In this document: positions 50,815 through 59,890 of the stretch, one piece after another
Position numbering within the stretch: position 1 is the first letter of the stretch
How the letters are laid out: every line of letters starts with the position of its first letter
Translations under genes and position numbers: made by a program
Source: Alentia gelatinosa
Lineage: Eukaryota > Annelida > Polychaeta > Phyllodocida > Polynoidae
Length of the DNA: 64,000 nucleotides
Reading direction: 5' to 3'
Assembly: GCA_950022655.1 (NCBI GenBank)
Contig: OX465587.1
Location: forward strand, 29,081,716 to 29,145,715
Notes under the pieces: generated by a model
The model's database searches: none
What the model saw: only the letters and a program-made list of their open reading frames with translations
Told to the model about the DNA's origin: nothing

Positions 50815-51360
50815 TATTAAAGGCATGTCCTACAGTACACAGTAGCGCCACCTGGTGATTTTCAAATACTGATAATTATTAAAAACCAGTCATATTGAGA
50901 ATTTTTTTTATTTTCGCGGTTACAATGATAGATTCTGGCTAGAATGATAAGCCAGTACTTAAAACCAGTCATATAGAGAAGTTTTGCTTGATAATATCAT
51001 ACCAATTTGAATCATTAAGTATCCAATACAAGTTTCAAGCATAATAATTCAGTTATCGAAGATAACACCATGATTGTAGTAACTAAGAGTTTGGTAAGTA
51101 TGTGAACCAGTTAGTTGATACTACTATCTAAAGAGACCATATGCATATAAACCAGGAATATATAATCCCGGAACTGTCATAAGGATTAATTACTGAACAC
51201 GTTGAAACATGTGTCGACATATTTTCTATGTCAATATATAGTAACATTTTATCAAGTTCAGGTAAGGGTCCTCGTTCCGTGTAGCAGTACAGTATGATCA
51301 GGTCTATATAACTACTGAAAACAAGGACGGTGACAAATGGTTTTTAAAATTCTAATGTGT
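50815..51360. mobile_element. Family G element, partial
   Basis: AAAGGCATGTCCTACAGTAC and GCGCCACCTGGTGATTTTCA at the left, GAAAACAAGGACGGTGACAA at the right, as at 1140-1358. Confidence 0.5.
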
Positions 51361-51367
51361 AGCACTG

Positions 51368-52004
51368 CACGTGCACCCCGCTCATAAGATCTCACACTCT
51401 CTGAGTGGTATTCTGTACAAGGTTCTCACTACGCACCCCTCTCATAAGATCTCACACTCTCTAAGTGGTGTTCTGTACAAGGTTCTCACTACGCACCCCT
51501 CTCATAAGATCTGAGACTCTCTAAGTGGTATTCTCTACACGGTTCTCACTATGCACCCCTCTCATAAGATCTCACACTCTCTAAGTGGTATTCTGTACAA
51601 GGTTCTCACAACGCACCCCTCTCATAAGATCTCACACTCTCTAAGTGGTATTCTGTACAAGGTTCTCACTACGTACCCCTCTCATAAGATCTCACACTCT
51701 CTAAGTGGTATTCTGTACAAGGTTCTCACTATGCACCCCTCTCATAAGATCTCACACTCTCTAAGTGGTATTCTGTACAAGGTTCTCACTATGCGCTGCT
51801 CTCATGAGATCTCACACTCTCTGAGTGGTATTCTGTACAAGGTTCTCACTACGCACCCCTCTCATAAGATCTGACACTCTCTAAGTGGTATTCTCTACAC
51901 GGTTCTCACTACGCACCCCTCCCATAAGATCTCACACTCTCTAAGTGGTATTCTGTACAAGGTTCTCACTACGCACCCCTCTCATAAGATCTCACTCTCT
52001 GTCT
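51368..52004. repeat. 60-bp tandem array
   Basis: About 10.6 units of exactly 60 bp: ACGCACCCCTCTCATAAGAT, CTCACACTCTCTAAGTGGTA, TTCTGTACAAGGTTCTCACT. Sixty is divisible by three, so the 107-codon frame here is a 20-residue repeat with no independent support. Confidence 0.95.
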
Positions 52005-52639
52005 ACGATTGGTGTTGTCAATCGCAGCCTATATCGGTATCCTATCATGGGCTATCGTAGAATCAGTCGCAGACACCTGTTCCACTGCCACGATTTTGTC
52101 TGACCTTATAATAGAATCGATTTCGTGTCAGGAAGTCAATTGTAAGGCCTATCGGGACCAGAAATGGCGTTGGTGGGGGTTAAGCGTTAACACTATATAT
52201 CACCCGGCTGTAATAAATATCATATATTAAAGCCAACCGGAAACCGATACAGAAACTGAAGCGATTTCTAGCCTCACCTACTGTGATTCCATTTACACGC
52301 TTCTATTATCACTTGTTTAAATCAGACTATGATATCACAATACACAGTAGAATGTTTGTCAGTCTTTCCATATATATTTCAACACAAGGGCTGGACAACA
52401 CAGCCCCTGAATGGAATTCTATAGAAATGCCACCTACCCCATCATATATCCCATTTAGCTGCGATTGGTGGTATTATAAAGAAACTCCTCGATGGTGTTC
52501 GCATACATGTGGGGTGAGAGTAGTGTTATATAACATGAACAACGAGGGACAGGCTTCATGAACAATGGCATTTTAGATCATGGCTCGCCAGTCACTCTCT
52601 GGCACATATGTTCTCTGTGTTCCTATTGGGTGTTCATGT

Positions 52640-53573: not shown

Positions 53574-53594
53574 TTTTTTTTTTTCTTTTTTTTT
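53574..53594 (-). other. A-rich tail of the LINE
   Basis: Twenty-one bases that are A on the minus strand except for one G. Position and composition fit the 3' end of a retrotransposed RNA copy. Sequence beyond it (53557-53573) does not match the 5' flank, so target-site duplication is unproven. Confidence 0.7.
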
Positions 53595-54069
53595 CAGAAC
53601 TTTTATTTCACTGTCAACATTACGATAAGTACATTGCTTCTCGAATACATCGGGAAAGTTCCCGCATTTACAATCTTGTCTTGAACTTTGTAGTTATGAC
53701 ATTACTTTCCTCTACATTGGATTTGTTGACAATGAAATCAGGGTGGATATCAAGTTTTGTATAACTTGATTTTCATATCCTGCCACACTCCCAGGCTAAG
53801 CCAAAATCTGGAGGGGGGCTTACAATGCATCCGTCCAAATATCCTCCAAGTCTCTTAATAGTCTTACCACGACAAATACAAGGACAAAATTCAAACTTTG
53901 GTAATATCGTATGTTGTATCACATATAGTAAACAGAGTAACAACCAGGATCAGATCTGTCTGTCTTAGAATAGGGGATGGGATCAGACTGAGCGGTCATT
54001 TATGGATTTCCTAGATTTTAGGCTTTTGTTTCAGAAAAATAGTACTAGTAATAATGATACAAGGGGCAG
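53595..54069 (-). other. 3' UTR of the LINE
   Basis: About 475 nt between the RT stop and the A-rich tail, with no open frame of note. It carries the AATAAA signal near its end. I see no short tandem repeat at the 3' end of the kind common in CR1 and L2; an A-tail is more Jockey/L1-like. Confidence 0.65.
53602..53607 (-). promoter_or_regulatory. Polyadenylation signal AATAAA of the LINE
   Basis: Read on the minus strand, AATAAA lies 7 nt before the A-rich run that ends the element. This is close to, but a little nearer than, the usual 10-30 nt. It supports Pol II transcription of the source element. Confidence 0.6.
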
Positions 54070-56943
54070 TCAGTTCGGTATACTATTCCTCAATTTTAAT
54101 TTTGTGAGTTTCTTAAATGTTTCATAGTTCTCCGTGTTCCGGACTGCTGGGCCCAAGGCATTCCATTTTATAGCACCATGATGGAGTACAGACCTTTCAT
54201 TTGCTTGACAGTGAGGGGTTGTCATTTTTAAAATCGGTGCTGTCTGTGCCCGAGTAAATGCTGTTGGTTGTTGGCAGTATTCATTTTTCTTTGACCTTAG
54301 GTACATCAAGTTTAGGACATGACTGTTCATTCTCTCCGATAAATAGGGAATTCTAGATACATTGTGTAGTGTTCTAACAGAGGTATAAATGGTCGCCCTT
54401 AGGCATATGCGTAAACATTTGTTCTGGAGCTTTTGTAGTTTGCTTACATGGGAAAAATCTGACGTTGCAAAAAGTACATTTCCATAGTCGAAGTATGGCA
54501 TAACTGTCGATTTATATACCTTTAGCGCACTTTCAACATCAAGATAAGGGCGCATTTTGCTTAGTTGGTACATCCGGTAAGATACCTTCTTTACAATGTT
54601 ATTTATATGCGAGTGGTAATTCAGACTGGAGTCCAGAATTACCCCCAGGTATCGGTATTCAAAATCAGTTTGAAGAGGATTCCCACTATAAGTAATTATT
54701 GGTGTATGTTTGTTCTTTTTACGTTTTGAGGTGAAATGTAATATTTTTGTCTTGTCTGTGTTTACTGTGAGCTTATTTTGCTCGCACCAAGTGGCCATTT
54801 TATCCATTGAAGATTGTAATAATAATCCTAAACTGTCGGTATCATGGCCTGAATTAAAAAGGACAGTGTCGTCCGCATATAAGCAAATTTCTGAGTCTTT
54901 GATAGCCGCTGTTAGGTCGTTGATATACAGGATAAACATCAGAGGTCCAAGTATGGAGCCTTGAGGGACCCCACAACCAACTCAGAGTTGGGAAGAATTA
55001 ATATTGTTCGCTCTGGTAACTTGTTTTCTATTTGCTAAGTAATTTTGAACCCAATTTAGATTTTAATCTCGTATACCATAATGATTTAGTTTTTCTAAAA
55101 GAATTTTGTGATTAACCGTGTCAAAAGCTTTTTTAAAGTCTACAAAAATTGCTATTGTATCTTTACCTATATTTCTATTTAATAAGATGTGATCGGTTAG
55201 TGTAGCTATGGAGTTGGTTGTGGAGTGTCCCTTTCTAAAGCCCGATTGTTTCTGGGTTAGTATTTGGTGGTGCTCAACAAAGTTAGTGATTTGGGCATGT
55301 ACTATTGACTCAATAAATTTTGACGGTAGTGGTTCTAGGGTTATGGGACGAAGGTTGGAGACCGTTAGGTCTTCACCCCCTTTAGGTATGGGTATCACAC
55401 AAGTTTCTTTCCATGATTGAGGTATTTCTTGTTGCTTAAATGAGGTGTTTATAAGATCCTGTATTATGTTGGGGATGGCAATAAACGTGTCTTTTAGTAC
55501 CTTTGAGTTGACTCCCTCTATCATAGATTGCTTGTTAATGTTAATTTGTTTTGCTATTTTCATTACTTCTTCTGCTGTGGTTTTCAAATTTTCCATCCGA
55601 GAAGGATTTCGAGTGTCATAATGTTTGAAAGGTGTGTACATTGCTGCTGATAAATTATGTCCAACATTAGAGAAGAACTGGTTAATACACTGTGGTATGT
55701 CGGTATCTGAAATAGGGTTGCCATTTGAGTCATTCAGCAGGATAAAATTTTCCGGTTTTGATTCAGTTCCCGGGAGGATACTGCCAATCGTGCGCCAAAA
55801 TTTCTTGTGGTCACCCTGTGCTATGTTAATTTGGTTTACTATGTAAAGCTGACGGGACGATTTTATTAATTGATTTGTTCTATTCCTGTTTTCTCGAGCA
55901 TTTGCCCAGTCCTCAGGATTTCCTGTTTTTTTCGCTTTCTTTAGTAACCTATTTTTAGCATGTATCATCTCCAACACTTCATGTGTTATCCAAGGTTCTT
56001 GCTTTTGTTTTATGTAAAATTCTTTGAAAGGACACATTTTATCTAATATGAATCTGATTTTCTGAAGTATTTGCTTCCATTTTTGTTCTACTGTTATCAA
56101 GTTATTGTACTCATCCCACTTTTCTGTTTGTATTAACCTAGTGAAATTTACAGCATTGTACCTTTGGTAACTTCTGCCAAATATCTTTTTCATCCTGTTT
56201 GGTTCGCTAACTTTCTTTTTAACACAAAATATACATTGATGATCGCTTAATGTGGTTTCAAGTACACCTGACTTTCTTATGTGCTTAATATCCGTGAAGA
56301 TCAAATCAAGTATCGAGTTGTTTTCAGAATACCGTGTTATGTCTTCAACTAGTTGCGATAGGTTCAGGGAAGTCAACATTTCAAGGAAGCCATTTACAGT
56401 GTTATCCAATTTGTTCAGTACGTTAATATTTATGTCTCCCATTATTAAAATTTCACAGTTGTAATTATTTCTTACTTCTTGTATGACATACGTTAGGTGA
56501 TTTAAACATTGTTGGAGGTTACCGTTTCTTGGTCTATAGATATTTAAAAATACAGTATCTTTCTCTTTTACTTTTTCCAATAAGAGACATTGCAGCTCTA
56601 GGTCCTTGGAGCTACAATTTTTGGTTTTAAGAGCATTCGCATCACATTTCACATTTTTGTTAACAAATGTACACACACCTCCTCCTATCTTAGGTTCAGT
56701 ATCGTTCCTATTCCGTTTCCAAGATCTATCTACTCTAAAACAGTTATAGTTTGATAATTGGTAACTTAGGTAGTCGTCATTCTTGGTAAACCATGATTCG
56801 GATACAGAAATAACATCACAGGTAACATTGGAGAAATGAGCTATAAATGAGTCGAATTTTGACTTTAAACTTCTAGTATTAGTGTGCACATATAGTGATC
56901 CTTTCAGTTGTCGTATCTCTGCTAAGTTGTATAGCTTAGTCAT
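54070..56943 (-). pseudogene. LINE endonuclease/reverse transcriptase ORF with two in-frame stops
   Basis: About 957 codons in a single frame starting at ATG 56943. The N-terminal APE-type endonuclease shows NTRSL (22-26), SESW (48-51), GGGV (87-90), MGDININ (168-174) and SDHQ (233-236). The reverse transcriptase shows LRPITL (531-536), SGFRKGHST (567-575) and FVDFKKAFD (600-608, motif A). The frame then stops (TAA, 55063-55065), reopens, stops again (TGA, 54982-54984) and continues through PQGSILGP and YADD (motif C) into a typical LINE thumb/C-terminal region ending at 54070. The frame is unbroken otherwise, so these look like recent nonsense mutations rather than long decay. As it stands the copy cannot make full-length RT: the first stop falls between motifs A and B. 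CR1/L2/Jockey group is my best placement. Confidence 0.93.
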
Positions 56944-57197
56944 ATTTTAAACAAGTTACCCCAGTTCAAACCGCCTTGCATTGCTATGGGTTTAACCTCT
57001 TTTGTCACATGTAGTCTTTGCTTTAGACGAGTGCGTCCTTGTAGTCCCCACTCCAATTCAGTTCTGTCAAGTTCAGAGTTTAGGCAGATACGTAACTGCA
57101 ACTTCTTAATACTAAGTAACAAACAATTATAGAGCACAAAGACTGCAACTATGGCAAATGTGCTCCAACTTATAAGGATGGTAAGCATGTGAGTCAT
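56940..57197 (-). CDS. Small ORF with one predicted membrane helix, overlapping EN-RT start
   Basis: An 85-codon ATG-started frame; the frame is also open for 11 codons upstream, from a GTG. Near the N-terminus is a hydrophobic run (from MLTILISW to about NCLLLSI, roughly 25 residues) long enough to span a membrane, followed by a charged, basic C-terminal half. Its TGA stop overlaps the ATG of the EN-RT frame in ATGA (56940-56943). I recognise no family. It could be a real accessory protein, the remains of a longer ORF, or a leader that sets up reinitiation on the downstream frame. SART1-type LINEs are known to use an overlapping stop-start for ORF2. Coding status is inferred. Confidence 0.4.
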   Translation of the reverse strand: MTHMLTILISWSTFAIVAVFVLYNCLLLSIKKLQLRICLNSELDRTELEWGLQGRTRLKQRLHVTKEVKPIAMQGGLNWGNLFKI

Positions 57198-57564
57198 GTA
57201 CCTACCATACAGGTTTTCGTGCCACCTCACCTCAGGTTATCCATTTGCAGGTATATCGCATAATTTATCAAATTTAAGTATATGTTGTTGTTGGGAGGGG
57301 GAAGAGAGAGACAAGAAACTTGGTTCCAGTGAGTAAATGTAAGTAACAATTTTCTCCAAGGGAAACAAGCTCACAGACCAACTTAAAATTCAGGTCTTTT
57401 GGAAATAATTTTGAGTCTAATGATTTAGGGGGGAGGAAGACATAAGGGAAAAATTTTGACTTTGCCTGGGTTTGCGTTATGAGATGTTGTAAGTAACAAA
57501 CTCCTCATAGAGTACTAGTACAGGCTTCTCCAGAGTCAATTTGGTATGTTGGGTTAGAGTCTAT
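57198..57564 (-). other. Spacer between SGNH ORF and membrane mini-ORF
   Basis: This stretch has no long frame on the sense strand of the element. The only structure I see is a 12-base motif (TTGTTACTTACA read on the minus strand) occurring twice, at 57488-57499 and 57338-57349, 150 bp apart. An internal promoter, an IRES-like segment or an intron-like region are all possible, but nothing in the sequence decides between them. Confidence 0.4.
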
Positions 57565-58302
57565 CTACCAACAGTAAGCTCGAGGGTTCAGGTTCCTTTC
57601 GAACACAGTAAGGAAATCCTTGGCCCAGAGGTCCGCTAACTGGGGGGATAGATGTACACCGTCCTTTGGCGACATATAGTCTGGGCTGAAATGTAGCTTA
57701 TTTTTGCGCCATCTGTGTGTGTGGTTGGCGATCCATGGAAAACTCAGGTGCTGTTTTGCATTTATCTCGATCAGAAACTTGTTATAGTCGCATATCGCAG
57801 AGTTGACCAGGTCTTGCTGTTCAGGCGTTGAGCTTGCAATGGAGTACTTTAGCGTTGGGGCTGCTAGGGGACAGAAAACCAGCTTTGCATCAGGTCGATT
57901 TTGGTACAGCCAGTCGCGTCCTACGTCCGTATAAATGACCAAGTTCGTAGCAAGCTCATTTGCAGATTCCCAGGTTAACGATATTTGGTGTGTAGTTGGG
58001 TCTTTCGTTGTTACGTTACACACACCGCCACATACATAGATTATCGAGTGGGGATTATGTGATATGAATGTGTCGGCAAGTACGATGAGGTCTTGTATTT
58101 TGGCCCCCTTAAATGTATAAACTGCGAAGCGGTTCATATTAACATTTCGTAGGGTTATGGCTTCCTGGAGTGGTGCGACGCGTGAATCACCCAAAATTAT
58201 GTGATTCGGGCATGGTTTCCAGACTCGGGTAAGCATTCTTTCAAGTTTACTCAGTTCGGCATCTAGCTTTGTAGGGTATGTGATTCCTCGTCGTGAATAC
58301 AT
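57565..58302 (-). CDS. SGNH/GDSL-like hydrolase ORF of the LINE
   Basis: A 245-residue intact frame starting with ATG nine bases after the NADAR stop. It has the SGNH block order: GDSRV (38-42, nucleophile Ser40), Gly66 in TFKGAKIQDL, CGGVCN (91-96, with Gly and Asn96), and DGVHLS (214-219, Asp214/His217). No signal peptide or membrane segment is visible. Esterase-type SGNH domains are known in ORF1 proteins of some CR1-like LINEs, where they are thought to act on lipids or acyl esters or to assist ribonucleoprotein handling. Here the domain is a separate frame rather than fused to a nucleic-acid-binding module. Enzymatic activity is inferred from the motif only. An alternative is a structural SGNH fold without catalysis. 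Confidence 0.82.
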   Translation of the reverse strand: MYSRRGITYPTKLDAELSKLERMLTRVWKPCPNHIILGDSRVAPLQEAITLRNVNMNRFAVYTFKGAKIQDLIVLADTFISHNPHSIIYVCGGVCNVTTKDPTTHQISLTWESANELATNLVIYTDVGRDWLYQNRPDAKLVFCPLAAPTLKYSIASSTPEQQDLVNSAICDYNKFLIEINAKQHLSFPWIANHTHRWRKNKLHFSPDYMSPKDGVHLSPQLADLWAKDFLTVFERNLNPRAYCW

Positions 58303-58311
58303 GATGGAGAC

Positions 58312-58895
58312 TTACTGCATTATTGTTAAGAGTGTGCGTAGTTCCTGTAGTATTTCGCCGTGTTTGTTGTCAGAAGTAATCCGGCCATAAGAGATTTTGG
58401 CTGCCTCACCCAGGTGGTAGCCGCAACCCCATACAGTGTCATTAGTTGCTTCGTATAACTTGAGGTCCTTTGTTTCAATAAGTAATTTAGCCAGCTCCGA
58501 GTTCTGTGAGAACTTCTCTTTGAGGATGTCACGCATTACGTCAAACTTTTTGTCCTCCCATTCCTTGCTTTTCTGTAGCGTCTTGGCCAGGTACTTTGCT
58601 TCGTATGGATTTTGCGTGTTGATGATTAGGTCCGCCGCGCGATCGTCACTCGCCTCTAGCGCTGCCCTGTGCTGGTAGCACTGTTCTGCGCTGATGTATT
58701 TCTGATTATCAAAGACAAATTCACTTTCGTACAAATTTGAGAAAGGAGCTCTGGGTCCTTGATAGGCTATCCCATCTTGTGTATTCACTGTCTTAAGCTT
58801 TGATATAGACAGATCGTATGGGAGATTGTCGATGTCGTCATGGGAGTACGTACGGTTGTCAATCCGGAGCGATGTTCCGCGTATCGTGCAGTTTA
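58312..58895 (-). CDS. 5'-truncated LINE ORF1 ending in a NADAR domain
   Basis: NADAR proteins (YbiA-like) act on N-glycosidic bonds of NAD/ADP-ribose-type or riboflavin-pathway substrates, and some reverse nucleic-acid ADP-ribosylation. Counting codon 1 at 58788 (a GTG, probably internal), the domain spans about residues 8-155: FSNLY (16-20), SAEQCYQ (33-39, with the conserved Glu), W77 before VM (84-85), NDTVWGCG (116-123) and N141..G144 followed by LQELR. All the family signature positions I know are present, so it may be catalytically competent. The frame is open for about 36 further codons upstream, to the element's 5' junction, without an ATG, so the true N-terminus is missing. The stop lies 9 nt before the SGNH start. 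The family call is firm; the role in a LINE is unknown. Confidence 0.85.
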
Positions 58896-59094
58896 GGGTC
58901 TAGGATCCAAACATATCAAGCACATGTGAGTATTGAGGTATTTTGGTCTTGAATGATTAGTCATGGTCAGCTGGGCACGCCTCTAAGACACGGGGACTCT
59001 GCTCTTTTAAGCCCAATGCCCATCTACCGATTTTGGAACATTTATGTACGTTTGTCGGCGACAAACAGAGGGTAATTTGTCTCAGCCGAGCCAT
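58896..59094. repeat. 199-bp perfect direct repeat, copy 1
   Basis: Identical base for base to 59450-59648. It starts GGGTCTAGGATCCAAACATA, ends in family A MITE sequence (GTCTCAGCCGAGCCAT) and borders the 5' end of the LINE. Confidence 0.95.
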
Positions 59095-59449: not shown

Positions 59450-59648
59450 GGGTCTAGGATCCAAACATATCAAGCACATGTGAGTATTGAGGTATTTTGG
59501 TCTTGAATGATTAGTCATGGTCAGCTGGGCACGCCTCTAAGACACGGGGACTCTGCTCTTTTAAGCCCAATGCCCATCTACCGATTTTGGAACATTTATG
59601 TACGTTTGTCGGCGACAAACAGAGGGTAATTTGTCTCAGCCGAGCCAT
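59450..59648. repeat. 199-bp perfect direct repeat, copy 2
   Basis: Same sequence as 58896-59094. Here it continues into the rest of an intact family A MITE. Confidence 0.95.
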
Positions 59649-59890
59649 CCTAACGGAGTCGGTAGATGTAGGACAGCTAGGCAAGGCTACCCAGCGATTA
59701 GTGAACACTCGGTTTCTTTGGTTTTTGCCCCCCCCCCCCCCCCCCCCAGCGATTAATGGACCATACACCGATTTTATCAGTGTGCGGATCGAGCGAGGGG
59801 TTACGTAATTTGCCTGCGACAAGGTGACCGACTCCTATACGATTTGGGAACTATTTTTTCAACCCTAAATCGGTAGATGGGCATCCGGCT
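59565..59890. mobile_element. Family A MITE with C-run
   Basis: TTAA at 59561-59564 on the left, TTTA on the right (one side drifted). Reverse orientation to the copy at 1637. The GGGGGAGGGCAAA segment of other copies has become a run of about 19 C at 59730-59748. Confidence 0.78.

Follow-up and report, generated by a model that had tools for sequence, protein, structure and literature searches.

The window, a 64,000-nucleotide stretch of contig OX465587.1 from the polychaete Alentia gelatinosa, carries on its minus strand a 5'-truncated LINE copy in which the end of an ORF1 with a NADAR domain is followed by an SGNH-type ORF, a small ORF, and an ORF2 encoding an endonuclease and a reverse transcriptase (RT) (Table 1). 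With its endonuclease-RT ORF2, A-rich 3' tail and multiple copies, the element corresponds to an APE-type LINE; the sequence-only reading of this DNA had placed the endonuclease/RT and the tail on the strand of the two upstream frames, as is indeed the case. That reading had also described NADAR and SGNH as separate frames nine bases apart. The spacing is exact (one TAA and 9 nt, in the same frame) and the SGNH is an ORF of its own, but the NADAR frame forms the C-terminal end (~195 codons) of an ORF1 whose N-terminal coiled coil and RRM-like region were lost by truncation. The common frame prompted us to consider a single ORF split by a nonsense stop, which was rejected: wherever both domains were found, NADAR closes ORF1 and SGNH lies in a different ORF, the fused copy L072 being the one exception, so the stop is no fresh break.

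Table 1. Coordinates of the LINE copy and adjoining sequence in the window.
Feature	Coordinates	Strand	Evidence
LINE copy, 5'-truncated	53574..58895	-	Homology to L015, L016, L017, L074 and L075 ends at 58893; 3' end common to L074/L075 down to 53577-53581
ORF1 C-terminal part, NADAR domain	58312..58893	-	PF08719 E 4.7e-27; longer ORF1 in L074 and L075; TAA stop at 58312-58314
SGNH-type ORF, 245 aa counted from ATG	57565..58302	-	Motif blocks, family alignment, kinship with the L007 SGNH ORF
Small ORF, one hydrophobic stretch	56940..57230	-	Best 19-residue mean hydropathy 2.35; L074 and L075 counterparts of 108-111 codons
ORF2, endonuclease and RT	54070..56943	-	PF14529, PF00078; single frame, two in-frame stops
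A-rich 3' tail	53574..53597	-	Read from sequence; AATAAA slightly upstream
Flank, 199 bp, adjoining the LINE 5' end	58896..59094	.	100% identical to 59450-59648; outside the element

The two upstream frames are longer than base composition yields, as the longest stop-free run never exceeded 188 codons (mean 88) when the bases of the 1332-nt region were shuffled 1000 times, against 248 and 195 in the window. The small ORF, of ~96 codons, sits between SGNH and ORF2, and its TGA overlaps the ORF2 start (ATGA). Owing to the two in-frame stops, the whole ORF2 cannot be made by the window copy; the stop-free ORF2 of the relative L075 is 74% identical to it. In the stretches compared for a target-site duplication, no common word was longer than 6 bases, and Rfam searches returned no match.

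A multi-copy LINE family in the same genome

The full plan of the family is displayed by two long relatives, L074 and L075, in the same 1.23-Gb genome: an ORF1 with a coiled coil, a LINE-1-ORF1p-like region and a C-terminal NADAR, then SGNH in an ORF of its own, a small ORF that encodes a hydrophobic stretch (read in 3 copies), and the endonuclease-RT ORF2; in L075 all four ORFs are open. A profile of 13 ORF1s searched against the PDB matched LINE-1 ORF1p (2ykp/2yko, E 1.7e-6) at positions 128-290 and NADAR (8bau, E 8.9e-23) at positions 326-476. Among the 150 NADAR places listed and scored in this genome, 92 were closely followed on the 3' side by an SGNH place of the same strand; an opposite-strand SGNH place was never seen, and one case showed the wrong order. 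The proposal that NADAR, SGNH and endonuclease-RT belong to one LINE is thus upheld in many copies: the family carries NADAR on ORF1, and in most paired copies a distinct SGNH ORF, the small ORF and the endonuclease-RT come after it.

Constant co-occurrence, which that reading had proposed to check, holds only in part. SGNH-less subfamilies are present (five NADAR-RT gaps of 400-444 nt, and also L081), and 31 of 72 RT matches, among the matches listed, have neither domain. Five of these 31 were read 2.5 kb upstream, showing one frameshifted NADAR without SGNH, one SGNH remnant and three stretches without a recognised feature, a pattern that fits, rather than proves, 5' truncation. The combination of RT copies devoid of both domains and a NADAR-SGNH pair that constitutes a host gene or a different element, named by the sequence-only reading as opposing its view, was not encountered as far as tested.

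Between L074 and L075, identity is 94-98% in ORF2 and 72-78% in ORF1 and SGNH, with the step falling before the small ORF. It therefore seems that ORF1 and SGNH move as a cassette, and this half appears to have been exchanged between the two elements. Protein database searches with the NADAR, the SGNH and the ORF1 read-through gave no match, and SGNH was not found in plasmids; scans of viral_contigs and genome_contigs yielded no confirmed relative, single patterns matching 30 and 20 stretches, respectively.

A NADAR clade with a probably remodelled pocket

The domain assignment is confirmed: the window NADAR matches PF08719 with 95.7 bits against a cut-off of 35.1, in agreement with the superfamily profile, as well as PDB 8bau (E 8e-13) and NCBIfam ribofla_fusion TIGR02464 (E 5.8e-27, 94.8 bits against a cut-off of 73.7). 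The sequence-only reading had credited it with all signature positions; the domain stands, but the signature Lys, seven residues past the helix Glu, is Ala. Of 49 aligned rows, 37 lack this Lys and have A, H, V, M, Y or L in its place, never R; row counts are not independent because near copies are among them. A WGCxxH motif was present in 35/35 readable rows without the Lys and in 0/11 rows with it, the latter showing WGI or WGG instead. On a tree of 36 rows, the 25 Lys-less ones form one branch, corresponding to a single change (support 93/91). As reconstructed from this alignment and tree, the window clade shows a single loss of the Lys, with Cys and His fixed in the WGxG motif. The helix Glu is kept in 48/49 rows and a second Glu in 47/49; by our own reading of the alignment, the latter is probably the YbiA-family Glu of PMC11125620, as far as the available part of that paper goes.

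According to the accessible text of PMC11543638, the equivalent residue of E. coli C7 NADAR, K95, is essential for hydrolysis. The window NADAR lacks this feature of catalytic guanine-ADPr hydrolases, and since it is missing throughout the clade, the suggestion that the domain acts like the tested de-ADP-ribosylases is unsupported as stated.

The SGNH ORF and selection on both domains

The Ser, Gly, Asn and Asp-His blocks described by the sequence-only reading are legible as GDS, GGVCN and DGVH. In an alignment of 16 sequences, GDS, G96 and D217-G-x-H220 are invariant, and the block-III Asn is Asp in 2/16. Family profile searches with the window ORF gave no match; among the members, GDSL_2 was reached by 4/16 (best 0.0013), Lipase_GDSL by 1/16 (1.9e-4) and the unrelated ATPgrasp_ST by 3/16 (best 6.9e-4), and in the PDB the profile ranked CydC (0.048) above 4c1b (0.086), presumably the ZfL2-1 ORF1 esterase. 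Related ORFs of L007, to which the window ORF is akin, and of L013 reach the Pfam GDSL cut-off, whereas that of L008 does not. We thus use SGNH as a putative label, based on motifs and distant kinship. A single-sequence AlphaFold model was useless (pLDDT 33).

The dN/dS check proposed earlier was carried out. Pairs with dS >0.5 gave 0.06 for linker plus NADAR (3/171 pairs usable), 0.08 for the NADAR core (4/171) and 0.06-0.13 for SGNH (8/253), values that show the signature of purifying selection on both domains in diverged pairs. Young pairs ranged from 0.10 to 0.66, which raises the NADAR core median to 0.31. The NADAR looks to be selected within the element.

RT type and comparison with known systems

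The window RT carries a GVPQGSILGP-type motif, not the RQGC type. We take GVPQGSxLGP to denote Jockey-superfamily (CR1/L2-like) RTs and RQGCxLSP those of Tx1/L1 type; by this motif, the window RT is probably Jockey-superfamily. It aligns with L077 at 24% identity over 170 aa, and with L078 and L076 at 25% over 586-648 aa. Assignment of the element to Tx1 was rejected by the motif and the shorter L077 alignment. In the same genome, L012/L077 combine a NADAR ORF1 with an RT of another type, presumably Tx1/L1-like, and L012, like L008, keeps the Lys.

Published systems are compared here as described in the available parts of the cited papers. NADAR in a LINE ORF1 is already in print for Tx1 elements of Crassostrea gigas (PMC12477816). 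The sequence-only reading knew of no described LINE with the set of NADAR, SGNH and endonuclease-RT; our literature search found no description of NADAR LINEs with the SGNH pairing, a non-Tx1-like RT or a lost Lys. These three features distinguish the present family from the oyster elements. Ectocarpus Gypsy elements also bear a NADAR, but within Pol of an LTR element (PMC12477816). LINEs with esterase-type (type IV) ORF1, e.g. ZfL2-1 (PMC3905857, PMC4120745), share an SGNH-type esterase, putative in the window family, in a CR1/L2-like LINE; there it lies inside ORF1 without an RRM (none of the Repbase esterase ORF1s had one, according to PMC3905857), whereas here it is an own ORF alongside an RRM-like ORF1. 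Type II (LINE-1-like) ORF1p shares the coiled coil and RRM-like region, found in the profile of the 13 relatives and truncated off in the window; the C-terminal NADAR is an addition. DarT1-NADAR antitoxins and YbiA (PMC11543638, PMC11125620) are alike in domain family and Glu positions, and differ from the window clade in the essential Lys and the motif (WGI/WGG in Lys rows, WGCxxH here).

Proposed role of the NADAR

The reading that we favor, with a probability of roughly 0.45, is that an ORF1p-borne NADAR acts in cis against a host modification. ORF1p would coat the RNA of the element, and its NADAR would act on a nucleotide-linked ribose adduct of the element RNA or cDNA, or on an ADP-ribose-type signal, so countering the host; in the window clade the pocket may have been re-tooled, most likely for cleaving a different adduct, and, on the model of the ZfL2-1 ORF1 esterase, SGNH might help at the surface of lipids or membranes. 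Host macromolecular ADP-ribosylation has been proposed as the target of RNA-virus NADARs (accessible part of PMC9503650). A search for a Scabin-like host guanine ADP-ribosyltransferase (PF22596) gave 0 matches, its control being likewise silent. Rather unlikely, in our estimate, is the stronger proposal that the Lys-less WGCxxH NADAR arose within the LINE lineage as a new catalytic class, its target being a mark that the host puts on nucleic acids or nucleotides and that differs from guanine-N2-ADP-ribose.

The loss of an essential residue under low dN/dS in diverged pairs would also suit a NADAR without catalysis that either reads ADP-ribose-type ligands or has a structural function in ORF1p; we regard this as possible but doubtful, since both Glu and the new Cys/His pair are kept in all or nearly all readable clade rows, beyond the needs of a scaffold. 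The near-invariance of the two Glu could instead mean that the domain still removes ADP-ribose from guanine, with some other residue standing in for the Lys, and E. coli C7 NADAR retains hydrolysis in vitro when it carries K95R (PMC11543638, available text). This is improbable given that Arg never occupies the position; the Arg at Glu+6 is no clear replacement either, as Lys-bearing NADARs (8bau, L007, phage L005) have it too. A metabolic role, in which the domain would either cleave riboflavin intermediates as YbiA does or turn over NAD, to the indirect benefit of the element, would agree with the TIGR02464 match, but fusion with a LINE-1-ORF1p-like region points to an RNP and makes it very unlikely. 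The existence of L006, a host-like NADAR open frame elsewhere in the genome without a recognised SGNH, is what could be cited for a chance neighbourhood of a LINE and host genes, which the repeated order and strand and the four open ORFs of L075 refute, leaving it a negligible probability.

One NADAR clade has a probably remodelled pocket yet is conserved in the relatives examined, and should a Lys-less NADAR be a new catalytic class, its substrate would bring to light a hitherto unknown way in which animals defend themselves against retrotransposons. The oyster Tx1 NADAR is a passing remark in the available part of its source; the present family makes a testable system. Lys-bearing and Lys-less NADARs in one host constitute a natural experiment on the need of LINEs for NADAR and on animal ADP-ribosylation of retroelement nucleic acids. 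Within this one genome, elements with seemingly Tx1-like and Jockey-like RTs both have NADAR on ORF1.

Organization of the NADAR LINE

The NADAR domain of the window LINE is certain (PF08719; match to the NADAR structure 8bau), the ORF directly 3' of it shows SGNH blocks, an endonuclease (PF14529) and an RT (PF00078) are encoded by ORF2, a single frame interrupted by two stops, and the 3' end is an A-rich tail. Homology to the five other copies compared stops at 58893, which marks the copy as 5'-truncated: all that is left of ORF1 is its tail, the NADAR frame. The full plan is displayed by two long relatives: in L075 all stop-to-stop frames are open (ORF1, 490 codons; SGNH, 250; small ORF, 111; ORF2, 965), and L074 has the same order, but with ORF2 split across three frames. 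A profile of 13 ORF1s matches LINE-1 ORF1p (2ykp, 2yko; E 1.7e-6), followed by NADAR (8bau; E 8.9e-23). SGNH and NADAR occupy different ORFs wherever both were found in the copies examined, except in L072, where one 723-codon open frame fuses them. NADAR also lies within very long open frames at G000:C2:18941364-18941924 (1212 codons) and G000:C5:15169851-15170321 (1040 codons), which may be fusions of ORF1 with ORF2.

Compared in 300-nt steps, L074 and L075 share 72-78% identity across ORF1 and SGNH and 64% in the spacer; just ahead of the small ORF identity rises to 94-98%, and it stays there up to L075 position 7828. The simplest reading is that one half was exchanged by recombination or template switching; from this one element pair, ORF1 and SGNH would appear to move jointly.

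NADAR-bearing LINEs compared in the genome
Element	Window position	Strand	Content	RT motif
LINE copy	53574-58895	minus	single element, 5'-truncated	
L008/L076			ORF1 with Lys-bearing NADAR; SGNH-like ORF	GVPQGS-type
L007/L078			ORF1 with Lys-bearing NADAR; SGNH-like ORF	GVPQGS-type
L012/L077			ORF1 with Lys-bearing NADAR	RQGC-type

We take the RQGC-type motif to be Tx1/L1-like. The ORF1 of L074, of the window lineage, matches that of L012 across 472 aa (E 2e-41). To L008 it aligns in NADAR (8e-22) and weakly in the RRM-like region (1e-5), and to L007 in NADAR; the RT of this lineage is closer to L076 and L078. This hints that ORF1 may have been swapped between LINE superfamilies, a point that the NADAR tree does not resolve; such exchange is described for other ORF1s in the available text of PMC4120745.

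Copies and co-occurrence

The 1.23-Gb assembly containing the window (101 contigs) was searched for copies, and copy and pairing counts are to be read as lower bounds. The Pfam NADAR search gave 3136 first-look candidates, of which 150 were scored, all above cut-off. With window queries, 150 of 3204 candidates were scored for NADAR, 150 of 2134 for SGNH (166 matches, 150 of them listed) and 70 of 16620 for EN-RT (72 matches, a few being two pieces of one element). The sequence-only reading proposed checking whether NADAR, SGNH and EN-RT always co-occur in order, and they do so in part. Among the matches listed, at least 92 of the 150 NADAR places are followed, on the same strand and at 3-253 nt, by an SGNH place. 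In no case does one lie within 3 kb on the other strand, and the order is wrong in one case. Upstream of the 72 RT matches lie both domains in 23, NADAR only in nine, SGNH only in nine and neither in 31, again among the matches listed, where a missing partner proves little. One NADAR-only case (C3:89255300) has an SGNH beyond the 2.5-kb limit used. Five others have a NADAR-RT gap of just 400-444 nt, and in L081 NADAR precedes RT with no recognised SGNH: subfamilies without SGNH exist.

Equal-scoring NADAR copies at G000:C6 11617130, 11646902 and 11676674 are spaced by exactly 29,772 bases, suggestive of tandemly arrayed units of ~29.8 kb; similar copies lie at 11.29, 11.34 and 11.41 Mb. Five 777-codon NADAR ORFs with equal or nearly equal scores at G000:C1 91.92-92.33 Mb are possibly another array.

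The NADAR pocket

According to the available text of PMC11543638, K95 of E. coli C7 NADAR is essential to hydrolysis, with P. nicotianae K50 as its counterpart; E88A has a minor effect in vitro and E88Q is inactive, and the superfamily Glu E173 is dispensable in that enzyme. This Lys sits seven residues past the helix Glu in our alignments and is present in YbiA and 8bau; the window has Ala there, contrary to the earlier statement that its NADAR retains all signature positions. Across 49 alignment rows, which include near copies, the column holds Lys in 11, another residue in 37 and a gap in one (a phage), the Lys rows being host-like L006, the ORF1s of L007, L008, L009, L011, L012 and L013, and four phages. 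The motif WGCxxH is found in 35/35 readable rows without Lys versus 0/11 with it. In a tree built without the Lys column (36 rows, 13 omitted by hand, one phage assigned Lys by eye), a single branch (support 93/91) parts the 25 Lys-less rows from all others, and Lys presence changes once in 93% of bootstrap trees; the change is a loss if the root is assumed to lie among the Lys rows. At the search sensitivity used, no relative with the Lys-less WGCxxH pattern was confirmed in genome_contigs or viral_contigs.

Identity of the putative SGNH ORF

Family profile searches returned no family match for the window SGNH ORF. Among 16 relatives, in which GDS and DGxH are invariant, four touched GDSL_2 (best 0.0013) and one Lipase_GDSL (1.9e-4), and three also touched an unrelated ATP-grasp family (6.9e-4). 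The profile placed chance-like CydC matches first in the PDB (0.048), followed by an ORF1-encoded protein, 4c1b (0.086), presumably the ZfL2-1 esterase. Kindred ORFs of L013 and L007 attain a Pfam GDSL cut-off, and that of L008 falls short; 214 aa of the L007 ORF align with its L074 counterpart (E 9e-10), and it also aligns with that of L008 (E 1e-28). The window ORF is taken as a probable SGNH relative.

Selection and possible role

The dN/dS comparison across copies proposed by the sequence-only reading gave, at dS > 0.5, 0.06 for linker plus NADAR (L074/L020), 0.08 for the NADAR core (L024/L025) and 0.06-0.13 for six SGNH pairs; young pairs gave 0.10-0.66, and usable pairs numbered 3-4 of 171 for ORF1 and 8 of 253 for SGNH.

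Beside the architecture, linkage, conservation and pocket change of the NADAR LINE, which are direct observations, a mechanism can be proposed in which ORF1p would coat the element RNA and NADAR would target an adduct or signal of the ADP-ribose type there. ZAP is PARP13. Since ZAP restricts human LINE-1 retrotransposition (PMC4441479, PMC4423928) and clam CARP-1 modifies guanine (PMC11543638), as far as the available texts describe, a PARP- or ART-based conflict with the element would be plausible. The accessible part of PMC12477816 places NADAR in Ectocarpus Gypsy Pol and in the ORF1 of several Tx1 LINEs from C. gigas, and guesses at RNA processing as its role. In the mostly open-access literature covered, no description was found of a LINE that pairs NADAR with SGNH, or of one whose NADAR lacks the Lys.

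Sequences flanking the elements

A 199-bp perfect direct duplication occupies window positions 58896-59094 and 59450-59648, the first copy beginning exactly at the LINE 5' end; it could be filler copied while the 5' end was being joined, or a wrong join in the assembly. A short dispersed repeat at 59560-59700, in the LINE 5' flank, recurs at ten other window places (73-95% identical over at least 100 nt), and 51255-52094 is an array of 60-bp tandem repeats containing an open frame. Directly upstream of a NADAR-LINE ORF1 in L024, an open frame (3-458) presumably resembles a tyrosine recombinase.
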